Part shown: positions 5,990 through 32,985 of the stretch, piece after piece | Position numbering within the stretch: position 1 is the stretch's first letter | Layout of the letters: every line of letters begins with the position of its first letter | IMG/VR virus record: IMGVR_UViG_3300025430_001199 | Coordinates: 1-64,000 of that record | From: a virus | Length of the DNA stretch: 64,000 nt | Reading direction: 5' to 3' (one strand) | The notes under the pieces: model-generated | What the model saw: the letters and a program-made list of their open reading frames with translations, nothing else | The model's database searches: none | What the model was told of the DNA's origin: nothing | Program-made: the position numbers and the translations under genes

Positions 5990-7999
5990 ATGGCAGACAT
6001 TTACAGAGTAGATCCCGAACTGGTTAAAAAGATAAAATGGCAAGGCGACCCTGTTGCCTATGACCTTGAGCTACAACAACTATGCGATGAAGAGCGTTTT
6101 CTAGTTATCAACCCTTGGCTAGTAGATCCGGATCTACATCACTATATTCATAATGTTCCTGCATCTGACAAATGTATAGTTTGGGGCATGGACGGAGAGT
6201 GGATTGCCAAATGTTTTAATAGCTATTGGAAACCCAGTGATGGCTATGAAGAAATCATATTGGAAAAGCCCAAGCTGATTTGGCGTAAGAATCCAGATCT
6301 AGATCGCATGATGACTTTTGTCGATGATCCAGTAAACACCTACGATCCTGGTACATGGCACAGGCAACGAGAACTAGTTTGGTATATGGATACTAGGTTC
6401 AATCCACTAGAAGATCGTGTATGGGTGTACAAATGCATACCTTCCGGTATAGCAGTTAAAGGCACACATGTAATGGAGGATCTAACCCCAAATGTCAAAG
6501 TGTCATTTAACCCAGACCTTCCAGACTTCAATCTAAACATAGATGAACTATGCCCTCCCTATTGGGATTTGGCCTATGAATGTGTTTACAATCTAGATCC
6601 AGAATATAATACAGACGGGGATGTTTGGGCCGTAAAGTTTACTCCCGAATATAGAAAGCCCATGCCTGCCAAAGTTGTGGGTACGGTGAGTCCTGAACTC
6701 ATAATCGAATACAATCCTAAACTTCCAAAGTTAGACTATGATGTTAGTTATTCTGTGTCGTGGGATAACTTAAATTACGAACATGTTTGGATGTTAGACA
6801 ACAAACATAAAAAGACTGAAGAAAAAGAGATTTGGGCATTTAAGATAAAAGCATCAGCCAAAACCAAACAACGGATTATTGTTGACTATGTTAGTCCCAT
6901 AATGACCTACGAACTACATCCTGATCTAGAAGGAATGCAGTTTGAAGGCATAGAAGAACATGTAGCACATCATAAAGAGTTTGAATATAGGCATTGTTGG
7001 AAACTGGATACAGTTACTAGTACAGGCTATGACATAGTTGCTGTTACTGGCTCCTATGTGGATAAACCCAAAGGCGACAAGTATGTGGGCACAGTATTTC
7101 CCGCAGTCAACATTCAAAAGAATCCCAAGTTGCCTAGATTGGAAATGGAAGTTGACTACAACATTCCTTATCACGACAAAGACTTCAAGCATGTTTGGTA
7201 TCTTGATCCAGAATGGAATCAAGACAATGTATGGGCATTGACCATGAGTCTAGTTGATAATCCCGCAGGTACAAAGGAAATGGGTATTGTTACTCCATTG
7301 TTTGAACCACTCGATGTGGTGTTTATCAGTTACAACGAAGACAATGCAGAAGAAAACTGGCAAAGAGTTTTAGAGTTTGCTCCATATGCACAACGAGTAG
7401 ATGGAGTCAAAGGTATCATGGCTGCACATAAAGCCGCCGCCGAACTATGTGAAACAGACATGTTCTTTGTAGTAGACGGTGATGCATATTTGGAAGACGA
7501 TTGGTCGTTTAACTTCCAGCCAGGCATCTTTGATAGAGACTGTGCTTATATTTGGCACAGTCGTAATCCTATCAATGGTTTGACTTATGGCAATGGCGGT
7601 GTTAAACTATTACCACGTGCTTATGTATTACATCGTAAAACTTGGACTACATTAGACTTTTCTACTACTGTGACTAAAAAACTCAAAGTCATAGAAGAAG
7701 TTAGTAACACAACCCGTTTTAATACCAGTGAGTATGCTACTTGGCGCAGTGCCTTTAGAGAATGTGTTAAGTTATGCTATAACATGGTCTATGATTCAGA
7801 TAACTCTGAACATGAAGAAAGATACAATGATTGGCTTACAAAAGGTTCAAATAAACCATTTGGTGAGTATGCACAGCTAGGTGCTCAACATGCTAGAGAG
7901 TTTATAGATAATGCTCGTCCTGATCAACTAAAGAATATCAATGACGAAGAATGGTTATTAAAGGAATATAATGTCAGATTCGGACGAGAAGAAAGTTAG
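5990..7999 (+). CDS. Glycosyltransferase-like protein with five N-terminal repeats and a GT-A-like domain (669 aa)
   Basis: Residues about 94-155, 165-225, 234-290, 301-358 and 369-425 are five degenerate repeats with the core NP.LP.(L/F)...V.Y, then HVW.LD, then VWA. A sixth, weaker copy may lie at 38-82. The C-terminal domain (about 440-620) starts DVVFISYNEDNAEENWQRVL and contains FFVVDGDAYLEDDW, a DxD-type metal/nucleotide-sugar site (D496, D498) after a GT-A-like beta strand. This architecture recurs in marine phages. It is the first gene of the array and overlaps the following radical SAM gene by 29 bases. A transfer reaction is inferred; donor and acceptor are unknown. The repeats may bind carbohydrate or the acceptor. 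Confidence 0.65.
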   Translation: MADIYRVDPELVKKIKWQGDPVAYDLELQQLCDEERFLVINPWLVDPDLHHYIHNVPASDKCIVWGMDGEWIAKCFNSYWKPSDGYEEIILEKPKLIWRKNPDLDRMMTFVDDPVNTYDPGTWHRQRELVWYMDTRFNPLEDRVWVYKCIPSGIAVKGTHVMEDLTPNVKVSFNPDLPDFNLNIDELCPPYWDLAYECVYNLDPEYNTDGDVWAVKFTPEYRKPMPAKVVGTVSPELIIEYNPKLPKLDYDVSYSVSWDNLNYEHVWMLDNKHKKTEEKEIWAFKIKASAKTKQRIIVDYVSPIMTYELHPDLEGMQFEGIEEHVAHHKEFEYRHCWKLDTVTSTGYDIVAVTGSYVDKPKGDKYVGTVFPAVNIQKNPKLPRLEMEVDYNIPYHDKDFKHVWYLDPEWNQDNVWALTMSLVDNPAGTKEMGIVTPLFEPLDVVFISYNEDNAEENWQRVLEFAPYAQRVDGVKGIMAAHKAAAELCETDMFFVVDGDAYLEDDWSFNFQPGIFDRDCAYIWHSRNPINGLTYGNGGVKLLPRAYVLHRKTWTTLDFSTTVTKKLKVIEEVSNTTRFNTSEYATWRSAFRECVKLCYNMVYDSDNSEHEERYNDWLTKGSNKPFGEYAQLGAQHAREFIDNARPDQLKNINDEEWLLKEYNVRFGREES

Positions 8000-9353
8000 A
8001 AAACTCATACCCATTATGAACAAAGTTAGTCCAACATTTTGTTTGGCTAAATGGCATCATACTACCTTGTACCTACAAACAGGTGAAACACACAGTTGTT
8101 ATCACCCGCCTCCACACAAGATAAACAAAGAAGAGATTAGACGTAATCCCAGCGCCCTGCACAATACTCCTATTAAAAAGTTAGAGCGTAGGGATATGTT
8201 ATTGGGCGTACAAACCAAAGGTTGCCAATACTGCTGGAATATTGAAAATATGGGCGAAGGTTACATCAGTGACCGCCACATTAGAACAACATCCATCTAT
8301 ACTCCTTCTCGGTGGGAAGAAGCAACTACAGGTTCATACAATAAGAACATCAACCCAGAATATATTGAAGTATCGTTCGGTAATGAATGTAACTTCAAAT
8401 GCGGCTATTGCCACCCCAAAGCCAGCAGTCGTTTCTACAACGAGATTAAACAGCACGGTCCTGTAGAAACAGTGAGCAATCATCGTTGTGATATCGATTA
8501 CCTAAAGATCTACGAGCGTGAAGAAAGTAATCCATTTGTGGATGCTTGGTGGCGTTGGTGGCCTGAAATGAGTAAGACACTGAACATTCTACGAGTTACT
8601 GGTGGGGAACCATTGATGCATACCAGTACTTGGAAACTGTTTGATAGCCTGAAAAATGACCCCATGCCTCAATTAGAATTAAATATCAATAGCAATATTG
8701 GTGTCAAACCAGCATTGGTAGATAAGATGATTGATAGTGTAAACTATGTTACAGACAACAAAGGAATCCGTAGATTTAAGTTGTTTACTAGCATTGATAC
8801 ATGGGGCCCACGAGCAGAATATATTCGAACAGGATTAGATTTGTCCATTTGGGAACGCAACCTCGATGCGTACCTAATAGGTACTGGACAGCCGATCAGT
8901 TTTATGATTACGTTTAATATCTTGTGTGTGACAACATTCAAGAGCCTATTGGAAAAGATCTTAGAATGGCGTGCCAAGTATAATCAGTACAATAGAACTG
9001 ATCAACCGCAAATGGTTAGATTTGATACACCCTATCTCAAAGAACCATTGCAGTATGATATGAATATATTGCCCAAGACAGAGTTTTTGCCTTACATGCA
9101 CGAGTCGTTAAAGTTTATGAAAGACAACACAGACGAAAACGATTTGGCAAAGTTTACAACTTTTGAATATGAAAAGTTTAGACGTGTCGTTGATTATATG
9201 GAATCAACAACATATGATGATGCTCGCGTCGCAGAAGGTCGCAAGGATTTTTATAACTGGTTTAATGCGTTAGATGAACGCAGGGACACAAACTTTTTGG
9301 AAACGTTCCCCGAGATGACAGATTTTTATAATGAATGTAGTGAATATGAATAA
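7971..9353 (+). CDS. Radical SAM protein with N-terminal SPASM/twitch-like cysteines (460 aa)
   Basis: The radical SAM [4Fe-4S] signature is CNFKCGYC at residues 140-147 (CX3CX2C). It is followed by VTGGEPLM, the SAM-binding GGE motif. Upstream, C24, C43, C85 and C88 (FCLAKWHHT..., then SCYHPP, then CQYCWN) form a SPASM/twitch-like auxiliary-cluster region placed before the radical SAM core. In classic SPASM enzymes it comes after. The call is closest to the 'twitch domain-containing radical SAM' type of marine phages. Related copies follow in the next three genes. It generates a 5'-deoxyadenosyl radical; the substrate could be a peptide or a sugar. Confidence 0.8.
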   Translation: MSDSDEKKVRKLIPIMNKVSPTFCLAKWHHTTLYLQTGETHSCYHPPPHKINKEEIRRNPSALHNTPIKKLERRDMLLGVQTKGCQYCWNIENMGEGYISDRHIRTTSIYTPSRWEEATTGSYNKNINPEYIEVSFGNECNFKCGYCHPKASSRFYNEIKQHGPVETVSNHRCDIDYLKIYEREESNPFVDAWWRWWPEMSKTLNILRVTGGEPLMHTSTWKLFDSLKNDPMPQLELNINSNIGVKPALVDKMIDSVNYVTDNKGIRRFKLFTSIDTWGPRAEYIRTGLDLSIWERNLDAYLIGTGQPISFMITFNILCVTTFKSLLEKILEWRAKYNQYNRTDQPQMVRFDTPYLKEPLQYDMNILPKTEFLPYMHESLKFMKDNTDENDLAKFTTFEYEKFRRVVDYMESTTYDDARVAEGRKDFYNWFNALDERRDTNFLETFPEMTDFYNECSEYE

Positions 9354-10584
9354 AGTAATACCGATTAACAAAGATTATCTAATGGAGGACAGTAAGACAT
9401 TTTGTATGCTTCCTTGGATGCATCTTTTTGTAAGTCCCGGCGGTGAAGTGTTTCCATGCTGTACCACTGATAGATCTTTACAGTTAGGGAATGTTAGAGA
9501 AAACTCCCTAAAGGAAATCTTTAACAGTGATGCTGCTAAGAAGCTGAGATTAGATATGTTAAATGATGTTCCTTCGGACTGCTGTAAAATGTGTTACGAC
9601 CGTGAAAAAATCAGTCCTCACACTTACAGAACATTTGGCAAAGATCATTTTGGAAAACGGTTTGATGAGTTAGTACCTAATACCAATGAAGATGGATCTT
9701 TGGATGAGTTTAAACTACATCTTATTGATATTAGATTCAGTAATATCTGTAACTTTGCTTGCAGAACTTGTGGTGCTGACTTTAGTAGTAAATGGGCCGC
9801 TGAACAAAAGAAACTGGGCCTGGAAGACTGGGTCACTATCCATGCAGACAATCATAAAGGCACACTGATTGAAGAAGTAAAAACACATTTAGATCACGCA
9901 GACATTCTTTACTTTGCTGGTGGCGAACCATTGATCATGGACGAACATTACATTATCCTTGAAGAAATGATTCGTCGGGGTCGAACAGATGTAATGTTGC
10001 GTTATAACACAAATGGTAGTACTATTAACTATAAGAATAAAGACTTATTAGATCTTTGGAAGAACTTTAAAAAGATTGAGCTACAGGTAAGCGTTGACCA
10101 TTACGGAGAACGTGCTGAATACATTAGACATGGAACCGAATGGGGCGTAGTTGAAAGTAACTTGATTAACTTTAGAAAACTAGATAATGTAAAGTTAGGA
10201 GTAGCCACAGTATTGAGTGTGTTTAACTATCTAACAATAACTGATTTCTATAGTTATATGTTAGATAAAGATTTGATTAGACAAGAGGATTATCAAACTT
10301 ATTTGTCTATGACTACACATCCGCCATATTATACTGCTACTGCATTGCCTAGACATTTAAAAGATATTGGAACAGAAAAGATAATGAAATATGCTCCAAC
10401 CTTGCAAAATGGACATATTGTAAAACAATACTTAGATTTGGCTATTCCTTTTGTTAACAGTGAAGATAACTGGAAAACGGCTAGAAAAGAATTCATACAT
10501 CATACTAAAGAGCGTGACAGAGTACGAGGGGAATCATTTGTTAGAACATTCCCAGAACTATACCCATTGATGGAACCAAAGTGA
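9346..10584 (+). CDS. Radical SAM protein, SPASM/twitch-like paralogue (412 aa)
   Basis: The N-terminal auxiliary region reads FCMLPWMHLFVSPGGEVFPC with a second adjacent Cys, then LGNVRENSLKEIFNS and CCKMCYD. This is the C.xPW.H...G.V.PCC...LGN.....EI.N layout of SPASM domains, here preceding the radical SAM core. The core has CNFACRTC (CX3CX2C) and YFAGGEPLI. I prefer the ATG at 9346 to one at 9331: the homologous paralogue starts at a similar distance from the first Cys, and the overlap with the previous gene drops to 8 bases. It sits in a run of four paralogues, pointing to stepwise or combinatorial modification of related substrates. Confidence 0.8.
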   Translation: MNKVIPINKDYLMEDSKTFCMLPWMHLFVSPGGEVFPCCTTDRSLQLGNVRENSLKEIFNSDAAKKLRLDMLNDVPSDCCKMCYDREKISPHTYRTFGKDHFGKRFDELVPNTNEDGSLDEFKLHLIDIRFSNICNFACRTCGADFSSKWAAEQKKLGLEDWVTIHADNHKGTLIEEVKTHLDHADILYFAGGEPLIMDEHYIILEEMIRRGRTDVMLRYNTNGSTINYKNKDLLDLWKNFKKIELQVSVDHYGERAEYIRHGTEWGVVESNLINFRKLDNVKLGVATVLSVFNYLTITDFYSYMLDKDLIRQEDYQTYLSMTTHPPYYTATALPRHLKDIGTEKIMKYAPTLQNGHIVKQYLDLAIPFVNSEDNWKTARKEFIHHTKERDRVRGESFVRTFPELYPLMEPK

Positions 10585-11825
10585 AAAAACAAAAAACTGT
10601 AACTGTAAATAAAGACTTTCTTTTAAATGAAAGCAAGACATTTTGTATGTCTCCCTGGATTCACCTATACACATCTCCAGTAGGAGAAGCAGCAGCCTGT
10701 TGTATTGCTAGGGATGTTGTGGGGAATACAACAGAACAAACTATTGAGTCTATCATCAATGGTGATAAGATGAAACAACTACGTTTGGATATGCTGAACG
10801 AACGTTTTAATCCCGCATGTGCTGGTTGTCATGAACATCAGGCGCAGGGTATTAGTTCTAGTAAAGATCAGTTTGCTAAACGATTTAAACATCACTTTGA
10901 TGAAGCTATGGCTAATACGCTAGAAGATGGCACTCTTGCTGACTTTAAAATGCGATATTTTGATGTGCGTTTTAATAACGTATGTAACTTTAAATGTAGA
11001 ACTTGTAATGCGGCATTTAGTACATTATGGGAACAGGAAGATATCAAACGTAAAGTACCTTGGGCTACTATTCACCCTAAGAACAATACTCCTCAACTAT
11101 TGGAAGAAGTCATTGAACATATTCCACATATGGAGTATGCGTATTTTGCTGGTGGTGAACCGTTGATTACCGAAGAACATTATATTGTTCTAGAAGAAAT
11201 GATTAAACAAGGTCGTACAGATATTAATCTTGTATACAACTCAAATGTCAGTAACTTGAAGTTTAAGAACAAGGATATTATTGAGTTATGGAGTCATTTT
11301 ACCAAACCTATTTCTCTAGAAGCCAGTATTGATCATCACGGTGAACGTGCTGAGTATATTAGACATGGCACTGATTGGGGACAGGTAGAAAAGAACCTTA
11401 TCAAACTCAGCTCAATGGATAATGTTAGATTTGGTCTAAATACTGTATGTAGTGTGTTTAACTATCATACTATGTTAGAATTCTATCATTACTTGATTGA
11501 AAAGAAAATCTATACCTCTTGGAGTTACACAACATTTGGTATCTATAATATGACATCACCGACACATTTTACATCTCAAGTAATGCCAGCTAAACTTAAA
11601 CGTGAAGCTACATTTAAGATTAAATCGTTGGTAAAGTTTATGCAAAGCAAGGGATTCCTCGATTATAAACTGCCTGTGGTAGAATCTACTATGGCTTGGG
11701 CAAATGCTCAACATACCTGGGCAGATAATAAAGCCAAGTTCCAAGAAGAGATTGCAGTATTAGACAAAGTCCGCGGCGAAGACTTTACCAAAGTATTTCC
11801 CGAACTTGCTTCAATGATGGATTAA
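10581..11825 (+). CDS. Radical SAM protein, SPASM/twitch-like paralogue (414 aa)
   Basis: GTG start overlapping the preceding TGA (GTGA), so translation is coupled. The N-terminal auxiliary cysteines are C22, C40, C41, C80 and C83 (FCMSPWIHLYTSPVGEAAAC and CAGC). The radical SAM core is CNFKCRTC at residues 135-142, with YFAGGEPLI further on. It is clearly paralogous to the gene before it: both share the spacing from auxiliary to core cysteines and the AEYIRHGT(E/D)WG motif in the barrel. The repeated core with diverged ends suggests gene duplication within the virus or repeated acquisition. The substrate is unknown. Confidence 0.8.
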   Translation: MKKQKTVTVNKDFLLNESKTFCMSPWIHLYTSPVGEAAACCIARDVVGNTTEQTIESIINGDKMKQLRLDMLNERFNPACAGCHEHQAQGISSSKDQFAKRFKHHFDEAMANTLEDGTLADFKMRYFDVRFNNVCNFKCRTCNAAFSTLWEQEDIKRKVPWATIHPKNNTPQLLEEVIEHIPHMEYAYFAGGEPLITEEHYIVLEEMIKQGRTDINLVYNSNVSNLKFKNKDIIELWSHFTKPISLEASIDHHGERAEYIRHGTDWGQVEKNLIKLSSMDNVRFGLNTVCSVFNYHTMLEFYHYLIEKKIYTSWSYTTFGIYNMTSPTHFTSQVMPAKLKREATFKIKSLVKFMQSKGFLDYKLPVVESTMAWANAQHTWADNKAKFQEEIAVLDKVRGEDFTKVFPELASMMD

Positions 11826-11826
11826 T

Positions 11827-13122
11827 ATGGTAACAAAAGCACATGTAACTAAACTGATCAAAGAAGGCAAGAACTTTTGTGTTCTACCTTGGATACACTT
11901 CCATTCGTTCCCTAATGGGGATGTTATGCCCTGCTGTATGGCAGATAGCTCTAAGCCAGTGTCTAAGATTAAATCAGAAGAATCTATTATTCAAATGATG
12001 AATAGTGACGAGTACAAAAAGATGCGTGTGGCTATGTTAAAAGATCAGCCGCTTGAAACTTGTTTCCGTTGCACCAGCGTAGAACAACTAGGTGCTTGGA
12101 CTATGCGTAATAGTCATAATACCCGTAGGGGACTTGACTATGTTGATCTTATTAGTAAGACTAAGAAAGACGGCAGCATTGACGAGTTTAAAATGAAGTA
12201 TATGGACATTCGTTTTAGTAACCTATGTAACATGAAATGTCGTACATGTGGACCTGCTTGTAGTAGTCAATGGGCAGAAGAATACGCTAAGACTAAAGGG
12301 CATGATAAGTTAGAAAAATACTTTGGATTAAAATCATTTGTTGTTAATACCAACGAAGACCAAGTGTTTATGACTAAACTAAAACCCTATCTCGATCACG
12401 TTGAAGAAGTTTACTTTGCAGGTGGAGAAGCTATTATTACACCCGAGCATTATGAATGTTTAGATTATTGGATTGAAAAAGGTCTGACCCATAAGGTTGA
12501 ACTAACATATACTACTAACTTTAGTGTATTGAAATACAAAGATAGAAACTTGATTGAGTTGTGGAAGAAGTTTCCCAACATCAAGATTTGGGCAAGTCTC
12601 GATGCCAGTGGCGATGTTGCTGAACTTGTACGCAAAGGTACCAAATGGGATACCATTGTTAAGAACATGAAAAAACTAAAGAAAGAAGTTCCACATGCAG
12701 AGTTCCAGATTAGTCCTACGATCAGTACATGGAATGTTTGGTCCTTCCCTGAGTTCTTTGATTATCTATATGACAATGAGTTGATTAGTAAAAAAGTTGA
12801 TCCTAGATTTAACTTGCTTACACATCCTTGGTGGGCCAATATCTTTATATTGCCAGACCATATTAAAGAAAAGTTAATCAAAACGTATGAAATGCATGTT
12901 AGGAAGTATGAACACTTGCCCGGCATTGCAAATGGGTTTAAACTTATACAACAGAACTTAAAAGCAGGCAGTCATAGATACGGTGATCATGTCAGTCATG
13001 AGGACAAAGGCGGTATATTAGAATTCATTTTCCATAATAATGAAATGGATGTTAATAGAAAAGAAAAGTTATTGGACGTTGTTCCAGAATTAAAAGAGGT
13101 CTATCAATGGGCAAAGAAATAA
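11827..13122 (+). CDS. Radical SAM protein, SPASM/twitch-like paralogue (431 aa)
   Basis: It starts one base after the previous stop. The auxiliary cysteines are C18, C36, C37, C79 and C82 (FCVLPWIHFHSFPNGDVMPC and CFRC). The core signature is CNMKCRTC at 134-141 and YFAGGEAII replaces GGEP. The loss of the Pro after GGE is tolerated in the family but differs from its siblings. A segment AELVRKGTKWD corresponds to AEYIRHGTDWG of the two preceding genes. It is the fourth and last member of the paralogous run and overlaps the next radical SAM gene by 16 bases. Confidence 0.8.
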   Translation: MVTKAHVTKLIKEGKNFCVLPWIHFHSFPNGDVMPCCMADSSKPVSKIKSEESIIQMMNSDEYKKMRVAMLKDQPLETCFRCTSVEQLGAWTMRNSHNTRRGLDYVDLISKTKKDGSIDEFKMKYMDIRFSNLCNMKCRTCGPACSSQWAEEYAKTKGHDKLEKYFGLKSFVVNTNEDQVFMTKLKPYLDHVEEVYFAGGEAIITPEHYECLDYWIEKGLTHKVELTYTTNFSVLKYKDRNLIELWKKFPNIKIWASLDASGDVAELVRKGTKWDTIVKNMKKLKKEVPHAEFQISPTISTWNVWSFPEFFDYLYDNELISKKVDPRFNLLTHPWWANIFILPDHIKEKLIKTYEMHVRKYEHLPGIANGFKLIQQNLKAGSHRYGDHVSHEDKGGILEFIFHNNEMDVNRKEKLLDVVPELKEVYQWAKK

Positions 13123-22762: not shown

Positions 22763-22766
22763 TCAT

Positions 22767-25117: not shown

Positions 25118-25813
25118 ATGAACCTTGTACCTACCAATCCTGTACTGGATGGATTAAATCTAAACGAGCATAATCGTACCTGTTTAACCAACGGCAAGTT
25201 TATAGACCATAAATGGTATCTTAAAGGTGGCGGTGATTTCCACCTTCCTTACTTTTTAGAAGCTATCGACAAATACGGCGCCAAGAAAAAATATAATAGA
25301 TGTTTTGAATGGTGTTGCGGACATGGCAGAATAGGCTGGGAAATATTAACACAAGACATCAGTAACGAACTCACATTTTCTGATATATATGATCTTGCTG
25401 TGTATACTGGATTTCAAAATGCAAAAAAACTAAACTACGATCAAGTGTTTACAGGATATGTAACACCTACCATTTCGGGTATTCCGGACACTGAAATATG
25501 GGACCTAGTAGTCGGTAATCCCCCTAATGCGATTAACGACGGCGGATATGTAGTAGATCCCAATATGCCTAAGGAAATGTATGATCTAGGCAAAAGATTA
25601 ATGATTGACACTGATTTTGTTGCTCATAAAGAGTTTTTTGCCAACATACGCCCTCATCTAACAGATGATGCAGATATTTTTATAACTGCACAGCTAAATC
25701 AAAAAGGTATATTAGAAGATATACTAACACAAGAAAACTTTAAACTGGTCAAAATAGTGGATATGTTCCCTACTGATCCAGGTTTAAAAGTAATGCTAAT
25801 CAAATCAAACTAA
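25118..25813 (+). CDS. Class I SAM-dependent methyltransferase with NPPN motif (231 aa)
   Basis: Motif I is CFEWCCGHGRIGWEIL (SAM-binding loop), and the catalytic motif is DLVVGNPPNAIND. The (N/D)PP(Y/N) motif is that of HemK/PrmC-like and N6-adenine methyltransferases, which methylate a planar amide or amino nitrogen. The protein is small, and motif I precedes NPPN by about 60 residues, as in the gamma/HemK order. A stand-alone enzyme in a glycan/radical SAM array could methylate a protein amide or a sugar amine rather than DNA. No target-recognition domain is visible. Confidence 0.7.
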   Translation: MNLVPTNPVLDGLNLNEHNRTCLTNGKFIDHKWYLKGGGDFHLPYFLEAIDKYGAKKKYNRCFEWCCGHGRIGWEILTQDISNELTFSDIYDLAVYTGFQNAKKLNYDQVFTGYVTPTISGIPDTEIWDLVVGNPPNAINDGGYVVDPNMPKEMYDLGKRLMIDTDFVAHKEFFANIRPHLTDDADIFITAQLNQKGILEDILTQENFKLVKIVDMFPTDPGLKVMLIKSN

Positions 25814-25824
25814 AAAAGGACTAT

Positions 25825-26793
25825 ATGGAAAAGACTTCTAAAATTTTAATCACAGGTGGATCTGGCCTAGTCGGACAAAATCTAACCAACAAACTGGTAG
25901 CTGATGGCTATACCGATATTCGTGTACATTTACATACTCGTATGCCGCGTGATATGCACAATGGTGTTGAATATGTAAATGGTGACCTAACAGATTACCA
26001 CACTTGCCTAGATGTTACCAAAGACTGTGATGTGGTTATTCATGCTGCCGCAAGTACCAGTAATGCTGTGGACACAGTTCAATCCCCACTTGCACACGTT
26101 ACACCTAATGTGGCTATGAATAACTTCCTAATCGATAGTGCTTATCGTAACAAGGTTACTAAGTATATTTTTATCAGTAGCAACACAGTATATCCACCAA
26201 AAGGCGACGAACCGGTGGTTGAAACAGACTTCTTGTTTGATGCTCCATATCCTGTTTACTTCCCAGTGGGTTGGATGAAACGTTATGCAGAAGTTCAATG
26301 CGAACTTTACGCCAAGTATTTGCCCACACCAATGACCACAGTGGTTATTCGTCCTGCTAACTTGTACGGCCCTCACGACAAGTATGACTTTGCCAAGTGC
26401 CACGTTACACCAGCAACTATTCGTAAGGTTGCAGACAATATGAATCCTATCCCAGTATGGGGCGATGGTACAGAACTACGTGACTTGTTATATATTGATG
26501 ACTTTGTTGAAGCAGTACAGTTAGTAATGGAAAAACAAGAGACTTATGATGTTTACAATGTAGGCTGTAACAATGTTTACTCTGTTAATGATGTTCTGTC
26601 TATTATGAAAAATCTTGTTAACAATACTAACCCTATTGAATATGTTACTGGCAAGCCCAGTATGATTCCCACACGCCGCATTGACTCTAACAAGATCAAA
26701 GCACAGTTAGGTTGGGAAGCTACAACTCCGTTGGAAGTTGGACTTAAGAAAGCCCACGATTGGTATCTTGCCAACAAGGATGAGTTCCAGTGA
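25825..26793 (+). CDS. NAD-dependent sugar epimerase/dehydratase-like SDR, second copy lacking the catalytic Tyr (322 aa)
   Basis: Rossmann loop GGSGLVG near residues 11-17. It has FISSNTVYPPKG for the Ser motif and VVIRPANLYGPHDKY plus LRDLLYIDDFVEAV in the substrate region. The residue four before the active Lys in PVGWMKRYAE (K152) is Val148, not Tyr. SDR family members of this type are commonly GDP-fucose synthase or NDP-sugar 4,6-dehydratase-like. Its resemblance to the gene at 22767, including the same loss, suggests a subfamily with a changed mechanism. AAAAAAGGA is the likely RBS. Confidence 0.78.
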   Translation: MEKTSKILITGGSGLVGQNLTNKLVADGYTDIRVHLHTRMPRDMHNGVEYVNGDLTDYHTCLDVTKDCDVVIHAAASTSNAVDTVQSPLAHVTPNVAMNNFLIDSAYRNKVTKYIFISSNTVYPPKGDEPVVETDFLFDAPYPVYFPVGWMKRYAEVQCELYAKYLPTPMTTVVIRPANLYGPHDKYDFAKCHVTPATIRKVADNMNPIPVWGDGTELRDLLYIDDFVEAVQLVMEKQETYDVYNVGCNNVYSVNDVLSIMKNLVNNTNPIEYVTGKPSMIPTRRIDSNKIKAQLGWEATTPLEVGLKKAHDWYLANKDEFQ

Positions 26794-27725
26794 AAACTGT
26801 TTTGATCACAGGCGGGGCTGGATATCTAGGATCCACCTTAGCAGAACATCTATTGAATAAAGGCTATGCAGTAACAGTATTTGATAATCTGTTATATAAA
26901 CAAGCATCTTTATTTCATTTGTTTAAGCACGAACATTTTAAGTTTGTACAAGGCGATGTACGTGATACCGAACTATTATTAGATCAAACTCAACAGCATC
27001 AAGTCATTATCCCCTTGGCTGCTATTGTAGGTATGCCTGCCTGTAAGGCTAATCCACAACTAGCCATTGATGTTAACTTTTTACATGTAGAAGCGATTGC
27101 CAAATACCTACATAAAGATCAAATGTTGATTATGCCCAATACAAATAGTCAATATGGATCATCGGATCAAATCATCACAGAAGAAAGCCCATTTAAACCT
27201 TTGAGTCTGTATGCTGAAACAAAGTGTAAGGCCGAGGATGCTGCGATTGCCGCAGGTGGTATTGCCATGCGCTTGGCAACAGTGTTTGGTGTAAGTCCCC
27301 GTATGCGCCAAGACTTGTTGGTAAACGATTTTGTTTACAAAAGTATGGTAGACGGGTATCTTGTGTTATTTGAAGCACATTTTAAACGTAACTATATTCA
27401 TGTACAAGACATTGCTCGGGCTTTTGAGTTTATGATTGAAAACTATGAAAAGTCTAGCGGTCAAGCATACAATGTAGGGCTAAGTACTGCCAATCTAAGT
27501 AAACTAGAGTTAGCCGAAAAGATCAAAGAGTACATTCCCAAACTGGTTATCAAACAAGACGACTTTAAGGAAGACTTTGATAAACGTAACTATATTGTGT
27601 CTAATGACAAGATTGAAGCACTGGGATGGAAACCTCAATATGATTTGGATTACGGAATCAAACAGTTAATGGCCGCATATCCGATTGTAATAACTAACAA
27701 TAACAGGAACTTTACAAACTTATGA
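26790..27725 (+). CDS. NAD-dependent epimerase/dehydratase (SDR) with intact active site (311 aa)
   Basis: GTG start overlapping the upstream TGA (GTGA). NAD loop GGAGYLG is at residues 8-14, catalytic YAETK is present, and ATVFGVSPRMRQDLLVNDFV plus FKRNYIHVQDIARAF complete the extended SDR pattern. It is similar to NDP-sugar 4-epimerases or 4,6-dehydratases. With two Tyr-less relatives beside it, it may be the catalytically competent partner. It most likely works on a nucleotide-activated sugar destined for the surface glycan. Confidence 0.8.
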   Translation: MKTVLITGGAGYLGSTLAEHLLNKGYAVTVFDNLLYKQASLFHLFKHEHFKFVQGDVRDTELLLDQTQQHQVIIPLAAIVGMPACKANPQLAIDVNFLHVEAIAKYLHKDQMLIMPNTNSQYGSSDQIITEESPFKPLSLYAETKCKAEDAAIAAGGIAMRLATVFGVSPRMRQDLLVNDFVYKSMVDGYLVLFEAHFKRNYIHVQDIARAFEFMIENYEKSSGQAYNVGLSTANLSKLELAEKIKEYIPKLVIKQDDFKEDFDKRNYIVSNDKIEALGWKPQYDLDYGIKQLMAAYPIVITNNNRNFTNL

Positions 27726-28156
27726 CTGAGAGAAGATACTTGCATACACTAGGCGACCTTATTGATAGATTGAGCATTGTTCAACTAAAAGAAGTTTTCA
27801 TTACAGAACACAAGGCAGAATATTCGCAGGAGATTGCGGATATTGTACACGATATTCAGCTTATACTCAATGAAGCAGATGCTGAGATCACAGCAGAAAC
27901 TATTCGTGCTATTGTGGTAGTGAGTCAAATGAATTTACATATTTGGCACAATGAATCTGCTTACCGTCGCGGACTTAAAGAAGGTAATCTAGCACTTACA
28001 CACGGATTAAATGGTATTCGTAATACTGCTAAAAACAAAATACAAGAAGTAGTAGGTGGCAGATTGGATTATAAAGTGGATTGTCTTGCCGCTGACTTTA
28101 AAGATTGGGAAATCAGTTGGGGCGAATCCAGCGAACCTAAGAAAAAGAAAAAATGA
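27722..28156 (+). CDS. Conserved hypothetical helical protein (144 aa)
   Basis: The N-terminus has TLGDLIDRLSIVQLKEVFIT; the middle has NLHIWHNESAYRRG. It ends in a Lys-rich tail (EPKKKKK). The sequence is almost entirely helical and lacks a catalytic motif. The LGDLIDRLSI motif together with (L/I)WHNES recurs in small proteins near sugar-nucleotide genes in phages and bacteria, from memory. It is coupled by ATGA overlaps to the epimerase upstream and the SGNH gene downstream, so it probably supports the same pathway. No function can be assigned. Confidence 0.6.
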   Translation: MTERRYLHTLGDLIDRLSIVQLKEVFITEHKAEYSQEIADIVHDIQLILNEADAEITAETIRAIVVVSQMNLHIWHNESAYRRGLKEGNLALTHGLNGIRNTAKNKIQEVVGGRLDYKVDCLAADFKDWEISWGESSEPKKKKK

Positions 28157-29100
28157 AATATCGTGGAAACCCTGAATCTAAAAAGGGCATGTTGTTTATA
28201 GGTGATTCTTTTACCTGGGGTCAAGGACTTTGGTGGTATAGTTTTTCTCCTGTGTTAGAAACTTATAAAGAACAAGAACAGGGATATTCCCCTTGGCTTT
28301 ATACTACTGCTAATCTAAAGTTTAAAAACAGGCATAGATTTCCTAGACTAGTTGCTGATCATTTTGATTCTTTTGAAATAGTTCATCCCAGTAACGGTGG
28401 TGCAAATGACTTGATGGTTGAGTATTGGACAGAAAGCCTTAACGATGATAATAATCATGGATCCTTTATAAGGAATACTTTATACGATCATCTAGCTCCG
28501 GATATTGCAGGTAAGACAGATGTTCAAATTGCTCAAGATTATCCCACTTGGTTTGATCAACTAACAAAAACCAAACACCAAGAGATTTCGCATGTAGTTT
28601 TTCAACTGACCTATTGGCCGAGAAGTCGTATTACAAACTTTGATTTTATCTATAGAGTAGGTCGTCCGTTGAGACTATTTGATGTTTGGAATCCTAGTCA
28701 ACACTATAAAGATTTATTTTCTGAATGGTTGTTGAATAAAAATATGGATCTTTTTCAGTTCCACAATGAATTTATTGCCAACGATTTTAACAATGTTAAA
28801 ACCTTTTTACAAGGTTTAGAAGAAAAAGGAATAAAGACCTACATCATGACATGGTCTCCCCACTATGTACCGTTAATCAAACAAGATGAACTTTTGGCAG
28901 ATAAACTTATAACATTTGAATATAACAATTCTACCTACGAATGTATCGAAGATATGTTTCAAAAAAACCCTGGGTTAGAGATATTAGGTGATTATGAACA
29001 TTTTGAAACTCCACCAGTGGATAGTCATCCGAGTCTACATTGCCATCGTTTATTTGCAGACAGCATTATTAAAAAAATAGAAAAGGATAAAAATGGCTAA
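28153..29100 (+). CDS. SGNH/GDSL-like hydrolase-fold protein (315 aa), first of four
   Basis: The nucleophile loop is MLFIGDSFTWGQGLWWYSF near the N-terminus (GDSxTxG). Near the C-terminus, DSHPSLHCHRLFADSIIKKI supplies a DxxH-like dyad. The segment FPRLVADHFD and VHPSNGGANDLMVEYWTE (block III Asn) completes an SGNH pattern. Enzymes of this fold deacylate or acylate glycans, among other esters. It is the start of a run of four consecutive SGNH-like genes. ATGA overlap at the start. Confidence 0.7.
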   Translation: MKYRGNPESKKGMLFIGDSFTWGQGLWWYSFSPVLETYKEQEQGYSPWLYTTANLKFKNRHRFPRLVADHFDSFEIVHPSNGGANDLMVEYWTESLNDDNNHGSFIRNTLYDHLAPDIAGKTDVQIAQDYPTWFDQLTKTKHQEISHVVFQLTYWPRSRITNFDFIYRVGRPLRLFDVWNPSQHYKDLFSEWLLNKNMDLFQFHNEFIANDFNNVKTFLQGLEEKGIKTYIMTWSPHYVPLIKQDELLADKLITFEYNNSTYECIEDMFQKNPGLEILGDYEHFETPPVDSHPSLHCHRLFADSIIKKIEKDKNG

Positions 29101-29794
29101 TATAGTTATAATAGGGGATACATGGGGAACCGTTCCTTGTCATCTTTGGCCACGAGGAGATACCTCTATTGCAGAGTGGTTTGAATATCAGTTTCTCAAG
29201 AAAGGACATCCTACATTTAATAAATCTTGGGGAGGTAATAGTAATAACTATCAGTTTCAACAACTAGAAACATTGTTATATGCCACTAAAGATACCACAA
29301 TGTATCCAGATATCGTTATTTGGTTTCATACTGAGTTGATTAGAGATTTTACCCCTCCAGAAGTAGAAAAGTTTTCTACATTAGGATATGATGCAGTAAT
29401 AGATCTTACTGCCGAAAGAATGTATCAATGGGCCACTGATATTAAAAATAATCATCCTACTGTCAAATGGGCTATAATGGGCGGCCATGCCCCCCTACAC
29501 AAATCTAAAAAGCATATGTTAGATTGGGCAGATTATACAGTAGATAATCTGCGTTCTAAAATAACTGGAAAAGATGTGCCCGCTAGTCAAGCATTTGAAT
29601 TTTTAGAAAGAGGTAAAGGTTCTTTGTGGGATTGGCCCGATATATCCGAGGATATCATACAACGAGAGTTGTCTATTAAAGAAGAAATTATTGCAGCAAC
29701 ACAGGATACTTCGTTATTTCATAATCAAAAACATCCTGGGTTAGAATCAGCTAGGGCGCTGGCTATTGAAATAATGCAACATTTTAATATATGA
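29093..29794 (+). CDS. SGNH-like protein, divergent (233 aa)
   Basis: Starts MANIVIIGDTWGTVPCHLWP: the GDS loop is GDT here, so the nucleophile Ser is replaced by Thr or absent. SWGGNSNNYQFQQLETLL matches block III and HPGLESARALAIEIM the C-terminal His. It is shorter than its three neighbours, which share the longer WSEW/WLN middle domain. The changed first motif may mean it no longer acts as an esterase, or only binds glycan. It overlaps the gene before it by eight bases and the next by four. Confidence 0.6.
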   Translation: MANIVIIGDTWGTVPCHLWPRGDTSIAEWFEYQFLKKGHPTFNKSWGGNSNNYQFQQLETLLYATKDTTMYPDIVIWFHTELIRDFTPPEVEKFSTLGYDAVIDLTAERMYQWATDIKNNHPTVKWAIMGGHAPLHKSKKHMLDWADYTVDNLRSKITGKDVPASQAFEFLERGKGSLWDWPDISEDIIQRELSIKEEIIAATQDTSLFHNQKHPGLESARALAIEIMQHFNI

Positions 29795-30732
29795 TGAAAT
29801 ATAAACCAGATGCAACTCCTATAAAGGGCATGGTATTTGCAGGATGTTCCTTTACATGGGGACAAAATCTACATTATTATACTAACTCTAAAACTGTTAT
29901 AGAAGACAAGCCTTATAATTTTAACCCTATTTTTATAACCAGGGCACATGTTGCTTTTAAAGATGCTGTACGATATCCTAGACTTGTTGCCAATCATTTT
30001 AATACCTATGAAATAGTACACGCCAAAAATGGTGGCAGTAATAAAAAAATGTATGAGTATTGGTCTGAATGTTTTAGTAGACAAAACTCTGTTTTACTTA
30101 ATCCAGGAAAACCGACAAAATATGTTCATGCCTATGCCTATGATTATTTTAAAGACTCCGGAAAAGAAACTTTTGAATCACATCCAAAATGGTTTGATAA
30201 GATAGAATATATTGATACTAATGATATATCACACTTTATTCTTCAACTAACTCCTTATAACCGAGATACGGTACAGTTGAAGGTAGGCAATATACAGAAA
30301 GAAATTACTCTTAGTTTACTATGGAATCCAGATGGACCTTTTAGAGATTTATATTTGGATTGGTTAAATTTGAACAATAAAACCGTGGGTCAACACAATG
30401 AAGAAGTATTGCTAAACAGTTTAGCATCGGTAAAAACTTTATTACAACAACTAGAAGATAAAAATATTAAAACTTATATTCTAACTTGGCCTAATGATTT
30501 TTTAGAATATATTAAAAAGGATAGTTGGTTTTCTGAAAGATTTATTACTTTCGACTACGAAGGTAAGAACTATCTATCTATGGATGATTTAATGACTGTA
30601 CCCGGGTTTAAATTGTCCACTGATACTGATAATTTCGAAGTCCCAACTTTGGATGACCATCCTAGTTTAAAGTGTCATCGAGTTGTGGCTGACAACATTA
30701 TTAAAAGAATAGAACAAGATAATGCAAAGTAA
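29791..30732 (+). CDS. SGNH-like protein (313 aa), third of four
   Basis: Homologous to the protein at 28153. It has KGMVFAGCSFTWGQNLHYYT at the N-terminus (GCS instead of GDS, Ser retained), FPRLV-like YPRLVANHFN, and DDHPSLKCHRVVADNIIKRI at the C-terminus with the catalytic-type His. It carries the same insert region as its siblings. Two Met codons in tandem start it; the first overlaps the previous TGA. It probably belongs to the phage SGNH/DUF6071-like group; the substrate is unknown. Confidence 0.68.
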   Translation: MMKYKPDATPIKGMVFAGCSFTWGQNLHYYTNSKTVIEDKPYNFNPIFITRAHVAFKDAVRYPRLVANHFNTYEIVHAKNGGSNKKMYEYWSECFSRQNSVLLNPGKPTKYVHAYAYDYFKDSGKETFESHPKWFDKIEYIDTNDISHFILQLTPYNRDTVQLKVGNIQKEITLSLLWNPDGPFRDLYLDWLNLNNKTVGQHNEEVLLNSLASVKTLLQQLEDKNIKTYILTWPNDFLEYIKKDSWFSERFITFDYEGKNYLSMDDLMTVPGFKLSTDTDNFEVPTLDDHPSLKCHRVVADNIIKRIEQDNAK

Positions 30733-31603
30733 AGAAAACTGTAGAATTACCAAAGGCATGATATTTGCTGGATGTTCCTTTACGTGGGGACAGGGTCTAT
30801 ATTATTATAGTAACCTGCCCACTATAGGAGAACCTCCTCCGGATCAATACGATCCTAAACTAGTTAAACATGCACACATCAAGTTTATGGAAAGCGTTCG
30901 CTATCCTAGAATAGTTGCTGACCATTTTAATAGTTTTGAGTTTGTTCATCCTCAAAATGGTGGATCTAATGAAGGTGCTGTTACATGGTGGACCAAGTGT
31001 TTTACTGATAGATCTGAAGGTGCTTGGTATAGTGGACATAGTATTCCATTTATTGAATACGAAGAAGTGTCCCATGTTGTATTTCAACTAACTCAATGGC
31101 AGCGGGATCATGTTGTATTTGAACACAGCGGAAAAACGCATTACTTACCTTTTCACGAAATTAATAAAGACGAACATAAACAGCATTTCCTAAAGTATTT
31201 AGAAGATCAAGGTTTGTCATTAGATCAGTTTTTAGCACAATACATTCAAAAGGGTCTTGACAATGTCAAACAGTTCCTGCAAACTTGTGAAAGTAAAGGA
31301 ATAAAGACCCTAATCTTTACTTGGCCTGAAGAGTATATTCCCTTGATTGAGCAGGATCTTTGGTTATCTCAAAGATTTGTTACATTTAACTACAATGGTA
31401 AAAACTATAAAAGCATTACAGATTTAATGTGGCCTGGTGCCATGCACAGTAAAGGTTATAATCCAGAACTCACAGTTAAATGGGATGAGTTTTCGTTTGA
31501 AGTAACTCCTAAAGATCATCATCCAAGTTTAACTTGCCACAGAGTTATGGCTCAAAACATTATTAGACGAATAGAAAATGACAACAACAACGCAACCGTA
31601 TAA
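30722..31603 (+). CDS. SGNH-like protein (293 aa), fourth of four
   Basis: The nucleophile loop is KGMIFAGCSFTWGQGLYYYS, then YPRIVADHFNSFEFVHPQNGG (block III), then DHHPSLTCHRVMAQNIIRRI at the C-terminus. It is very like the preceding gene, including the Trp-rich middle (THWTKCF, TQWQRDH). It overlaps the previous gene by 11 bases and the E1 beta gene by 26. Multiple copies may give specificity for different acyl or glycan substrates. Confidence 0.68.
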   Translation: MQSKENCRITKGMIFAGCSFTWGQGLYYYSNLPTIGEPPPDQYDPKLVKHAHIKFMESVRYPRIVADHFNSFEFVHPQNGGSNEGAVTWWTKCFTDRSEGAWYSGHSIPFIEYEEVSHVVFQLTQWQRDHVVFEHSGKTHYLPFHEINKDEHKQHFLKYLEDQGLSLDQFLAQYIQKGLDNVKQFLQTCESKGIKTLIFTWPEEYIPLIEQDLWLSQRFVTFNYNGKNYKSITDLMWPGAMHSKGYNPELTVKWDEFSFEVTPKDHHPSLTCHRVMAQNIIRRIENDNNNATV

Positions 31604-32114
31604 AGATGCTTTAACACAGGCAATGACCTATTTGGGAGAGCAAAACAACACAGTGTTTATAGGACAACAGATTGTTTATGCTGGTAATCCTATGAGTACT
31701 ACATTGGGTAATGTGTCCAAAGATAAAATGATTGAGCTACCCGTCATGGAAGAAACACAAATGGGCATGAGTTTAGGTATTGCTATGACTGGTAAGACCG
31801 TGGTTACATTCTATCCTCGTTGGGACTTTATTATATTGGCTGCTAATCAACTGATTAACCATGTAGACAAGTATGAACTAATGACTGGTCAACAGGCCAA
31901 CATGATCATTAGATTGGGCAAAGGTTCAGACAAGCCATTAGATCCTGGTCATCAGCATAAAGGCAACTATTTAAAAGAGTTCAAATCTATGTGCCCAAAC
32001 ATTAAGTTTTATGATTTAAAAGATCATGCCAAGATTGTAGATACCTATAAGAAAGCCTATAAACAGGGCGGTGTGCATGTATTAATCGAATACCCGGAAC
32101 TATACTACGTATAA
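31578..32114 (+). CDS. Thiamine-diphosphate-dependent E1 beta-like / transketolase pyrimidine-binding subunit (178 aa)
   Basis: Matches the pyrimidine-binding domain of E1 beta or transketolase. NNTVFIGQQI is followed by KMIELPVMEETQMGMSLGIA with the catalytic Glu, then a conserved WDFIILAANQLINH. The protein ends without the C-terminal transketolase domain, so it is a minimal beta subunit (typical E1 beta about 325 residues). The alpha-type subunit lies 12 kb upstream at 19368. Seeing both halves in one array supports a functional split enzyme. It overlaps the SGNH gene upstream and the methyltransferase-like gene downstream (TAATG). Confidence 0.72.
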   Translation: MTTTTQPYKDALTQAMTYLGEQNNTVFIGQQIVYAGNPMSTTLGNVSKDKMIELPVMEETQMGMSLGIAMTGKTVVTFYPRWDFIILAANQLINHVDKYELMTGQQANMIIRLGKGSDKPLDPGHQHKGNYLKEFKSMCPNIKFYDLKDHAKIVDTYKKAYKQGGVHVLIEYPELYYV

Positions 32115-32665
32115 TGGAAATTAATCCAGACGCATTTAGCAGTGGACAAATAGGCAGTAAGATTTGGTTGTGTGAAGAACTAGAAAAAATTTACACACAA
32201 ATAGATTACTTAGGTATCTACGGCGGTTGGTATGGTATAACACATTTCCTACTCAAAGTTCGTGGCAACATACAAATAGATCGCTGTGTTAGTTTAGATA
32301 TGGATCCAACGTGCCAACCTGTGGCAGATATGATAAATGAAAACTGGGTATGGCAGGATTGGCAGTTTAAAGCCTTTACAGAAGATTGTAATAAATCAAT
32401 AACATCTTTGCGTAATATGGATATGATCATAAACACCAGTACAGAACATTTTGATAACATGGATTGGTGGAATAACATTCCCAAAGGAACCGCAGTTGTT
32501 CTACAAGGTAACAATATGCCTCATGAAGACCATCATGTTCATTCGAGTTGTCTTGAAGATTTTGTAAAAATGTACCCAGTTCGACAGCTGATGTATAGTG
32601 GTGAAAAAGCGTTTGTATATCCGAATTGGAGTTTTACACGCTTTATGATTATAGGTGAAAAATGA
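32114..32665 (+). CDS. Class I SAM-dependent methyltransferase-like protein (183 aa)
   Basis: Rossmann-like motif region IDYLGIYGGWYGITHFLLKV, followed by SLDMDPTCQPVAD (acidic end of strand 2) and MDMIINTSTEHFDNMDWWNN in the place of motif IV. The classical GxGxG is degenerate (GIYGGWYG). The conserved NTS.EH..... segment is characteristic of a small phage methyltransferase-like group. It overlaps the previous gene by one base (TAATG). Function in glycan or protein methylation is inferred from context. Confidence 0.6.
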   Translation: MEINPDAFSSGQIGSKIWLCEELEKIYTQIDYLGIYGGWYGITHFLLKVRGNIQIDRCVSLDMDPTCQPVADMINENWVWQDWQFKAFTEDCNKSITSLRNMDMIINTSTEHFDNMDWWNNIPKGTAVVLQGNNMPHEDHHVHSSCLEDFVKMYPVRQLMYSGEKAFVYPNWSFTRFMIIGEK

Positions 32666-32985
32666 CAAAAACAAATCGCCCGTGGGGCTACTATCAAGTA
32701 TTACACGAAGTACCGGGTATGAAAGTTAAAGAATTAACTGTTATGCCGGGACAACAGTTGAGTATGCAACGACACGAACATCGTAATGAATACTGGATTG
32801 TCAGTGAAGGCACTGCTACTATAGATTGGAATCCTGGTAGAACAACCCTTAAAGAACAACAAAGCAAAACTATACTTGTGGGCGAATGGCATCAGTTGAT
32901 CAACAACACTGATAACCCCTTAAAGATTGTTGAAATACAATACGGAACTCGTTGCGAAGAGTCCGATATCGAGCGTAAACCTTAA
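32662..32985 (+). CDS. Cupin; mannose-6-phosphate isomerase type II (ManC C-terminal)-like (107 aa)
   Basis: It has RPWGYYQVL at the N-terminus, MKVKELTVMPGQQLSMQRHE with the metal-binding HEHRNEYWIV, then GEWHQLINNTDNPLKIVEIQ. This is the C-terminal isomerase cupin of bifunctional GDP-mannose pyrophosphorylases, here stand-alone. It interconverts fructose-6-P and mannose-6-P, feeding GDP-mannose or GDP-fucose type sugars. It is the last gene of the long array and ends just before a new promoter. No ManC guanylyltransferase domain is seen. Confidence 0.75.
   Translation: MTKTNRPWGYYQVLHEVPGMKVKELTVMPGQQLSMQRHEHRNEYWIVSEGTATIDWNPGRTTLKEQQSKTILVGEWHQLINNTDNPLKIVEIQYGTRCEESDIERKP

Follow-up and report, generated by a model that had tools for sequence, protein, structure and literature searches.

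A tailed-phage array of radical SAM, sugar-nucleotide and ThDP genes resembling a two-module glycan operon

We analyzed the window formed by bases 1 to 64,000 of the 99,019-base virus record IMGVR_UViG_3300025430_001199, in which 26 open reading frames (ORFs) follow one another on the plus strand from 5990 to 32985 with no opposing gene. The record is, judging by its genes, that of a tailed phage, since it encodes ribonucleotide reductase, exonucleases, an ATP-dependent DNA ligase, collagen-like fibres and virion structural proteins. The array consists of two modules, A (5990–16394) and B (16391–32985), each of which is conserved separately in uncultured viruses, and which are linked in this phage and a few relatives. 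We propose that together they act as a cytoplasmic phage glycan operon, with a host O-polysaccharide or lipopolysaccharide (LPS) intermediate as the likelier acceptor, a reading to which we give a probability of about 0.5.

The array is tightly packed, with 19 of its 25 junctions overlapping (nine of these by exactly 4 bp), a widest gap of 36 bp and a coding share of 99.8%. The initial annotation had described overlapping or nearly touching co-directional genes behind a near-consensus promoter, and both observations held, the element TTGACT-16-TATAAT (11 of 12 positions matching) lying directly upstream. The gene families that it named are also present: six radical S-adenosylmethionine (SAM) genes, the E1α-like and transketolase-pyrimidine halves of a thiamine diphosphate (ThDP) enzyme, two 2-oxoglutarate (2OG) oxygenases, an RmlC-like and a ManC-type cupin, three epimerase-type members of the short-chain dehydrogenase/reductase (SDR) family and, by motif, SGNH proteins. 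None of the 26 proteins has a transmembrane-like segment. The array thus lacks a flippase, a polymerase and an initiating membrane transferase, would need host machinery or a soluble acceptor, and probably does its work in the cytoplasm.

Module B resembles a GDP-heptose pathway whose closest solved relatives are modification enzymes of the Campylobacter type. EPI3 matches PDB entries 6vo6/6vo8 with E=7e-98 across residues 2–308, nearly its full length, and its SDR residues S120, Y141 and K145 are invariant in 55 of 55 sequences. The PDB line for 6vo6 reads only "putative sugar-nucleotide epimerase/dehydratase"; we take this protein to be Campylobacter Cj1427, the C4-dehydrogenase that starts GDP-glycero-heptose modification, an identity that our literature search did not confirm. 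The eight best PDB hits of the RmlC-like cupin (E from 1e-35 to 7e-33) include named GDP-D-glycero-4-keto-D-lyxo-heptose epimerases and MlghB/DdahB structures, compared with 3e-19 for the best other RmlC, of the dTDP-rhamnose type. In Campylobacter jejuni GDP-heptose is modified by Cj1427/MlghA, MlghB and MlghC (PMC10680097, PMC7949155), and structures 7ANG, 7AN4, 7ANI and 7ANJ come from one of these studies (PMC7949155). The catalytic residues of MlghB/DdahB-type enzymes are His67, Lys74, Asn121, Tyr134 and Asp173. The equivalent cupin residues H75, K82, N129, Y141 and D178 are invariant in all 50 viral sequences, with Phe in place of Tyr132. Of the two residues proposed to confer heptose preference (PMC7949155), His123 is kept, and all 50 viral cupins have Ser in place of Ile56. 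The nearest relatives of EPI1 and EPI2 are GDP-L-fucose synthases.

The two ThDP subunits are minimal (221 residues for ThDPa, 178 for ThDPb), and their cofactor-site residues are invariant, namely E58/E59 of ThDPb in 80 of 80 sequences and the GD..DN motif of ThDPa in 60 of 60. Two-subunit ThDP enzymes of the alphaKADH2 type are known to branch keto sugars in natural products (PMC12247030), and the pair shares with them an E1α/E1β-like two-subunit design with an intact ThDP site, without the full E1β architecture. Matches to ThDPb in GenBank phages are remote only. Phylum-wide ThDPb matches were mostly about 30% identical within longer frames; we took these for ordinary E1β/transketolase-type proteins and left the matches unused except for G253.

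Gene order in other viruses ties these enzymes together. ThDPb has at least 112 viral relatives, of which the 80 kept are the window's own population and others at 67–85% identity, and the order SGNH_GT-RmlC-ThDPa-GT-EPI1-OXY-EPI2-EPI3-X144-SGNH-ThDPb-MT2 recurs among them with losses and rearrangements. Both ThDP subunits were found in 48 dereplicated loci, and EPI3 and RmlC accompany them in 28 of the 28 that have enough flank, a sample biased by the use of a window protein as query. In the same 28 loci EPI1 and EPI2 each occur in 21, and seven have neither reductase-like gene, which fits a ThDP branching step as an alternative outcome for the ketone. The contigs behind L031/L200 and L037/L218 carry both modules joined together, and in three further loci (L194, L226 and L247) module B comes after a more remote GT0-RS1-SGNH_GT set. 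A carbamoyltransferase family lies beside module B in 13 loci (for example at 11396–12874 of L247) and could also take part in decorating the sugar.

A cellular counterpart occurs in a 5.4-Mb bacterial chromosome (L347), where one strand carries genes for an HddA-like kinase, ThDPa (47% identity), ThDPb (39%), an RfbH-like pyridoxal phosphate (PLP) 3-dehydratase, an HddC-like guanylyltransferase, GmhA and EPI3 (46%), the family matches lying below curated equivalog cut-offs. In this cluster the ThDP pair and the C4-dehydrogenase are linked to the synthesis of GDP-manno-heptose. Yersiniose formation includes a 3-dehydratase step, and by analogy the combination of a 4-keto sugar, a 3-dehydratase and a ThDP enzyme in this chromosome would follow the same logic on a heptose. 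YerE is the ThDP enzyme of yersiniose formation (PMC12247030).

Module A opens with GT0, a 669-residue protein with no match in Pfam, NCBIfam or PHROG. Its AlphaFold model (mean predicted local distance difference test score 89, predicted template modelling score (pTM) 0.52) has confident domains in an uncertain mutual arrangement, and its best PDB matches in Foldseek, at low TM-scores, are the GT-A glycosyltransferases GtrB, SunS/ThuS, ppGalNAcT and RmlT and the PBCV-1 capsid-glycosylation enzyme 2p72. Nearly all residues invariant in the alignment, D496 and D498 included, fall in the C-terminal domain. The N-terminal part contains a variable number of mutually related repeats (97.8–99.1% in profile comparison). 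That these repeats are degenerate copies of the glycosyltransferase domain was considered and found unsupported, the best profile probability being 56%.

Behind GT0 lie the six radical SAM genes, all of which keep the CxxxCxxC motif. RS1–RS4 belong to the family N_Twi_rSAM (NCBIfam NF033640), scoring 297–381 bits against a curated cut-off of 170, and have extra N-terminal cysteines; Pfam places a SPASM domain at the N terminus of RS2–RS4. RS5 (37 bits) and RS6B12 (not listed) fall outside the family. RS6B12 resembles several B12-radical SAM families, all below cut-off, the best in NCBIfam being a C-methyltransferase family for ribosomally synthesized and post-translationally modified peptides (RiPPs). 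A PDB profile search with RS1 gave two weak MoaA matches only, and our literature search found neither a described function for N_Twi_rSAM nor a paper naming the family.

IMG/VR contains at least 105 relatives of RS1; the 80 that were kept (59–100% identity) gave 22 representative loci on dereplication at 80% identity. In 18 of the 22 the gene immediately upstream of RS1 belongs to the GT0 family, in 15 the one immediately downstream is an N_Twi radical SAM gene, and in 10 RS5 is close by. An independent scan started from GT0 found a window-like radical SAM gene no more than 6 kb away at 62 of 80 loci, directly adjacent in 43, and in one locus (L030) GT0 and an N_Twi radical SAM protein are fused into one protein of 1146 residues. 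RS1 and GT0 had no tblastn match in 50,697 GenBank phage records, where matches to RS2 were remote only. One 170-kb virus record (behind L083) contains 18 matches to the N_Twi_rSAM model.

In cells the family is unevenly distributed. In a sample of 399 genomes from the phylum to which a Rhodobacteraceae metagenome-assembled genome (MAG) belongs, only 3 passed its cut-off, one of them on a phage-like contig; in the phylum of a Bacteriovoracaceae MAG, 30 of 114 genomes did so, and copy numbers reached 12. Three Bacteriovorax-type MAGs (L095, L096 and L097) have a lone RS1 homologue (37–38%) near ribosomal-protein and obg-type housekeeping-like genes, named by eye, and this shared neighborhood suggests a cellular role of the homologue that is independent of GT0. 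A cellular locus, L321, combines an ABC-2 permease, a Wzt-N_Twi fusion, three more N_Twi genes, a TylF-type methyltransferase, WbsX and rmlC- and rmlD-like genes. The fusion (8582–11143) is a natural 854-residue protein of ABC ATPase, Wzt_C, SPASM and radical SAM parts, Wzt being the O-antigen export ATPase, and with the gene set around it places the N_Twi enzymes in O-polysaccharide export. GT0-like, several radical SAM, MT2-like and B12-radical SAM genes also occur together on a 349-kb bacterial genome contig (L333).

The TATAAT of the promoter-like element ends at 5980, nine bases ahead of the first ATG (GT0), and sits in the perfect dyad CTAGTA-TAAT-TACTAG; the GT0 start has no Shine-Dalgarno sequence. 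Within the 22 bases that precede the start codon, 9 of 12 dereplicated GT0 genes have the pattern [GT]ATAA[TC]TA, where shuffled sequences would give 0.14, a figure to be read as a lead because the pattern was picked after inspection of the leaders. The half-sites change together in several relatives. These features suggest a common, regulated and possibly leaderless promoter. Internal promoter-like matches are at shuffle level (49 against 52.7 expected and 67 against 65.2 expected) and terminator-like sites show no excess, which makes a single transcript plausible. T4 late promoters (TATAAATA) show no enrichment across the window (6 seen, 9 expected), so we draw no inference on the timing of expression.

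Table 1. Genes of the array, its promoter-like element and the Fe-S genes downstream.
Feature	Position	Strand	Evidence
Promoter-like element TTGACT-16-TATAAT inside dyad	5953–5989	+	11/12 match; related element in 9/12 GT0 leaders
GT0, N-terminal repeats and C-terminal putative GT-A-fold glycosyltransferase domain	5990–7999	+	AlphaFold, Foldseek, alignment
RS1, N_Twi radical SAM protein	7971–9353	+	NCBIfam 297 bits
RS2, N_Twi radical SAM/SPASM	9331–10584	+	Pfam; NCBIfam 381 bits
RS3, N_Twi radical SAM/SPASM	10581–11825	+	Pfam; NCBIfam 355 bits
RS4, N_Twi radical SAM/SPASM	11827–13122	+	Pfam; NCBIfam 367 bits
RS5, radical SAM protein without N-terminal twitch; C-terminal cysteine cluster	13107–14153	+	Pfam, motif
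RS6B12, B12-binding radical SAM enzyme	14154–16394	+	Pfam, NCBIfam
SGNH_GT, SGNH-like domain fused to domain common to GT1 and GT2	16391–18835	+	Motif, relatives, alignment
RmlC-like cupin, closest to GDP-4-keto-heptose epimerases	18832–19371	+	Pfam, PDB profile, residues
ThDPa, E1α-like ThDP subunit	19329–19994	+	Pfam E1_dh, PDB, residues
GT1, putative glycosyltransferase, GT2 family	19966–21363	+	Alignment, 39% to GT2
GT2, putative GT-B glycosyltransferase	21344–22762	+	AlphaFold, Foldseek
EPI1, SDR, GDP-L-fucose-synthase-like, candidate C4 reductase	22767–23753	+	Pfam, PDB, NCBIfam
OXY1, 2OG-Fe(II) oxygenase	23750–24427	+	Pfam
OXY2, 2OG-Fe(II) oxygenase	24428–25081	+	Pfam
MT, methyltransferase-like	25118–25813	+	MTS, below cut-off
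EPI2, SDR, GDP-L-fucose-synthase-like, candidate C4 reductase	25825–26793	+	Pfam, PDB, NCBIfam
EPI3, homologue of PDB 6vo6	26790–27725	+	PDB search, conserved residues
X144, 144-residue protein, function not assigned	27722–28156	+	74–90% identity in relatives
SGNH1, SGNH/GDSL-like	28153–29100	+	Motif
SGNH2, SGNH/GDSL-like	29093–29794	+	Weak motif
SGNH3, SGNH/GDSL-like	29791–30732	+	Motif
SGNH4, SGNH/GDSL-like	30722–31603	+	Motif, relatives
ThDPb, E1β/transketolase pyrimidine-domain subunit	31578–32114	+	Pfam Transket_pyr, relatives, residues
MT2, methyltransferase-like on inspection, without library match; seen repeatedly next to module B and GT0	32114–32665	+	
ManC-type mannose-6-phosphate isomerase cupin	32662–32985	+	Pfam
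IscU-like Fe-S scaffold, outside array, probable support	34303–34683	+	206.8 bits vs cut-off 192.4
IscA-like Fe-S carrier	34655–34981	+	NCBIfam
Second A-type Fe-S carrier	34990–35319	+	Sequence and clustering with the first

The remaining genes of module B are predicted transferases and decorating enzymes (Table 1). The GT2 model (pTM 0.89) has a GT-B fold, with GDP-bound VldE as its best Foldseek match, and the halves of SGNH_GT are separate genes in several relatives. The SGNH assignments rest on block-I motifs, since Pfam gave no hit; the motif is clear in four ORFs and weak in SGNH2. X144 had no PDB match by profile search, and neither it nor GT1 had a match in GenBank phages. Single-protein scans with GT1 and SGNH1 returned the same population or one partial relative only. 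A third 2OG-Fe(II) oxygenase gene lies upstream of the array at 867–1589 on the minus strand. Beyond the array, the IscU- and IscA-like genes (34303–35319) could feed its Fe-S enzymes, and L193 likewise has an IscU homologue close to module B. A perfect 12/12 match to the sigma-70 promoter occurs at 35316–35344, directly upstream of the DNA ligase gene (35370). Further along the record of this phage, the stretch L091 encodes a Gram-negative porin (Porin_4, E=1e-25; 2739–3689, about 84739–85689 of the record), which is unusual for a phage and a possible clue to the host, as well as an AhpC/TSA-type peroxiredoxin (860–1402) and a ClpX-like AAA protein with a C4 zinc finger (6208–7443).

From the gene content, synteny, homology, conserved catalytic residues and folds described above we infer the following reactions. 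EPI3 would oxidize host GDP-heptose, and the RmlC-like cupin would epimerize the resulting 4-keto sugar at C3 and/or C5. ThDPa and ThDPb are predicted to extend the C4 ketone by a short carbon branch, probably a C2 unit derived from pyruvate, and/or EPI1 and EPI2 would reduce this ketone. GT1, GT2 and SGNH_GT would then transfer the sugar, and the SGNH, 2OG-oxygenase and methyltransferase genes would decorate it. In module A, GT0 would add a sugar, and the N-terminal-twitch and B12-radical SAM enzymes would carry out C–H chemistry (epimerization, dehydrogenation or C-methylation) on the growing glycan, their clusters supplied by IscU and the two A-type carriers. The likelier acceptor is an O-polysaccharide or LPS intermediate facing the host cytoplasm, whose change would alter the receptor and exclude later phages.

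Several observations weigh against this scheme. The cupin, EPI1, EPI2 and EPI3 all score under NCBIfam equivalog cut-offs (for the cupin, 99 bits against 155.75 for the dTDP-4-dehydrorhamnose 3,5-epimerase RmlC, TIGR01221), and the Ser that the cupin has for Ile56 is the residue seen in hexose RmlC. ThDPb has only the pyrimidine-binding part of E1β, without the C-terminal domain, and for this reason we describe the pair as working like alphaKADH2 rather than class it there. The 3-dehydratase of the bacterial chromosome is absent from the viral block. A GmhA-type gene was not found in this virus or 13 relatives, nor a nucleotidyltransferase in 13 of these 14, so that host GDP-heptose would be needed, or the substrate may be GDP-mannose or a similar compound. 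The link between module A and glycans rests on neighbors and the Wzt fusion, many radical SAM/SPASM enzymes act on peptides, and the GT0 Foldseek matches have low TM-scores. The tail or structural genes that flank the block in relatives suit a virion target.

The earlier description of a virus-run pathway making and attaching unusual sugars therefore stands by homology, and not as one complete pathway: there are two modules, and no GmhA-type isomerase or nucleotidyltransferase was found in the record, which makes the pathway incomplete and its precursor probably host-supplied. The absence of membrane segments likewise counts against completeness. Independent movement of the genes, which would have spoken against any joint system, was not seen when gene order was searched in uncultured viruses, where it is kept in two blocks.

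The alternative that survives best keeps the same chemistry and moves it to the virion, so that the phage would glycosylate and tailor its own tail fibres, including the collagen-like fibres encoded downstream at 40255–49937, and thereby alter adsorption or shield the particle. The tail-fibre neighborhood favors this reading: in relatives the GT0-radical SAM block comes after large tail or virion structural-type genes. The lack of membrane segments in all 26 proteins suits it as well, as does the resemblance of the GT0 GT-A domain to enzymes that glycosylate peptides or proteins (SunS/ThuS, ppGalNAcT and 2p72), but that resemblance suffers from the low TM-scores already mentioned. T4-like host-recognition islands mix fibres with envelope-modifying genes, which leaves neighborhood alone a weak guide (PMC7029224). 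The cellular N_Twi array, in turn, lies in an O-polysaccharide locus, with one member fused to Wzt, and not beside fibre proteins. The Wzt fusion favors host O-polysaccharide, for which we put the odds at roughly even, with the virion clearly behind.

Less probable is that the radical SAM array serves the maturation of a peptide or protein in the manner of a RiPP system, its substrate being the GT0 tandem repeats or a small hidden peptide, and that the sugar genes are separate. SPASM/twitch enzymes commonly act on peptides, the best NCBIfam match of RS6B12 (below cut-off) is a RiPP family, and the repeats are related and variable in number. Family clustering down to 40 residues gave no conserved small ORF beside RS1, however; at many RS1 loci the GT0-family protein is short, about 310 residues, and lacks the long repeats, and polysaccharide loci are among the cellular contexts, so we consider this reading improbable. 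A hypervariable cargo island of unrelated genes sharing an orientation would account for the downstream half, which varies among relatives as cassettes come and go, a variation expected of host-recognition islands (PMC7029224). Synteny largely refutes it: EPI3 and RmlC always accompany the ThDP pair (28/28), GT0 adjoins RS1 in 18/22, one virus fuses GT0 to a radical SAM protein, and a cellular cluster has the same members, which leaves it very improbable. Hypermodification of phage DNA bases, the least probable of all, would suit an array of glycosyltransferase-like, radical SAM, 2OG oxygenase and methyltransferase-like genes, as phage glycosyltransferases can modify DNA, but the 2OG enzymes match the general 2OG-FeII_Oxy_3/4 families, no nucleotide-hydroxymethylating enzyme was recognized in the array, and both the NDP-sugar enzymes and the association with Wzt speak for polysaccharide.

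Returning to the two-module glycan operon, its most specific form, in which uncultured tailed phages encode a two-subunit ThDP synthase for C4-branched GDP-heptose and glycosyltransferase-coupled N_Twi radical editing of glycans that together yield a virus-specified surface glycan, is offered tentatively, and we regard it as doubtful. The operon reading would provide a concrete biochemical assignment (GDP-heptose oxidation, epimerization and ThDP branching) for a gene block whose order is conserved across dozens of uncultured viruses, and would give N_Twi_rSAM a probable place of action, on polysaccharide made at the cytoplasmic face. If true, phages carry enzymes that build a branched heptose and edit surface glycans by radical chemistry, which is relevant to receptor change, to superinfection exclusion and to the unanswered question why radical SAM genes are so abundant in aquatic phages.

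Glycan islands that combine glycosyltransferases with radical SAM cassettes are already known from phages (PMC7029224, PMC5332604), and the claim of an undescribed system accordingly narrows to the gene combination. A search of mainly open-access literature found no description of the ordered GT0-N_Twi array, of the viral GDP-heptose/ThDP block or of the junction between the two. The pelagimyophage host recognition cluster is likewise a large island that adjoins tail fibres, contains glycosyltransferases and radical SAM cassettes and has been proposed to change the host O-chain; the accessible part of that report does not describe an ordered radical SAM array or a GDP-heptose/ThDP block (PMC7029224). 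RS1 and GT0 are unmatched in GenBank phages. T4-like environmental genomes share IscU/A-type carriers and an expansion to as many as 12 radical SAM genes, without a glycan pathway or gene-order analysis in the part of the report available (PMC5332604). ThDP enzymes of branched nucleoside diphosphate (NDP) sugar synthesis (YerE in yersiniose; alphaKADH2, for example KbDH-α/β) are also encoded with an enzyme that forms a 4-keto-NDP-sugar, and alphaKADH2 shares the two-subunit E1α/E1β-like design (PMC12247030), whereas the subunits here are far shorter, viral and predicted to act on GDP-heptose. The carbohydrate clusters of cyanophages S-SM2 and P-TIM68 are similarly long and co-directional, with a transketolase-like ThDP protein, epimerases and glycosyltransferases, and are also annotated with phosphoheptose isomerase and nucleotidyltransferase; their ThDP protein is about 32–35% identical and part of a longer protein, and no N_Twi array is annotated. 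Unlike the O-antigen conversion operon gtrABC, the array has no membrane flippase GtrA or polytopic GtrC. With the Campylobacter GDP-heptose pathway it shares a full-length homologue of the structure that we take to be the C4-dehydrogenase, a cupin closest to 4-keto-heptose epimerases and GDP-fucose-synthase-type reductases. It differs in its phage setting, in having no recognizable GDP-heptose precursor genes, in the added two-subunit ThDP enzyme and conserved X144, and in the Ser that replaces Ile at one heptose determinant of the cupin. Relative to N_Twi_rSAM at large, to which RS1–RS4 belong, the members here stand in tandem behind a dedicated putative glycosyltransferase.

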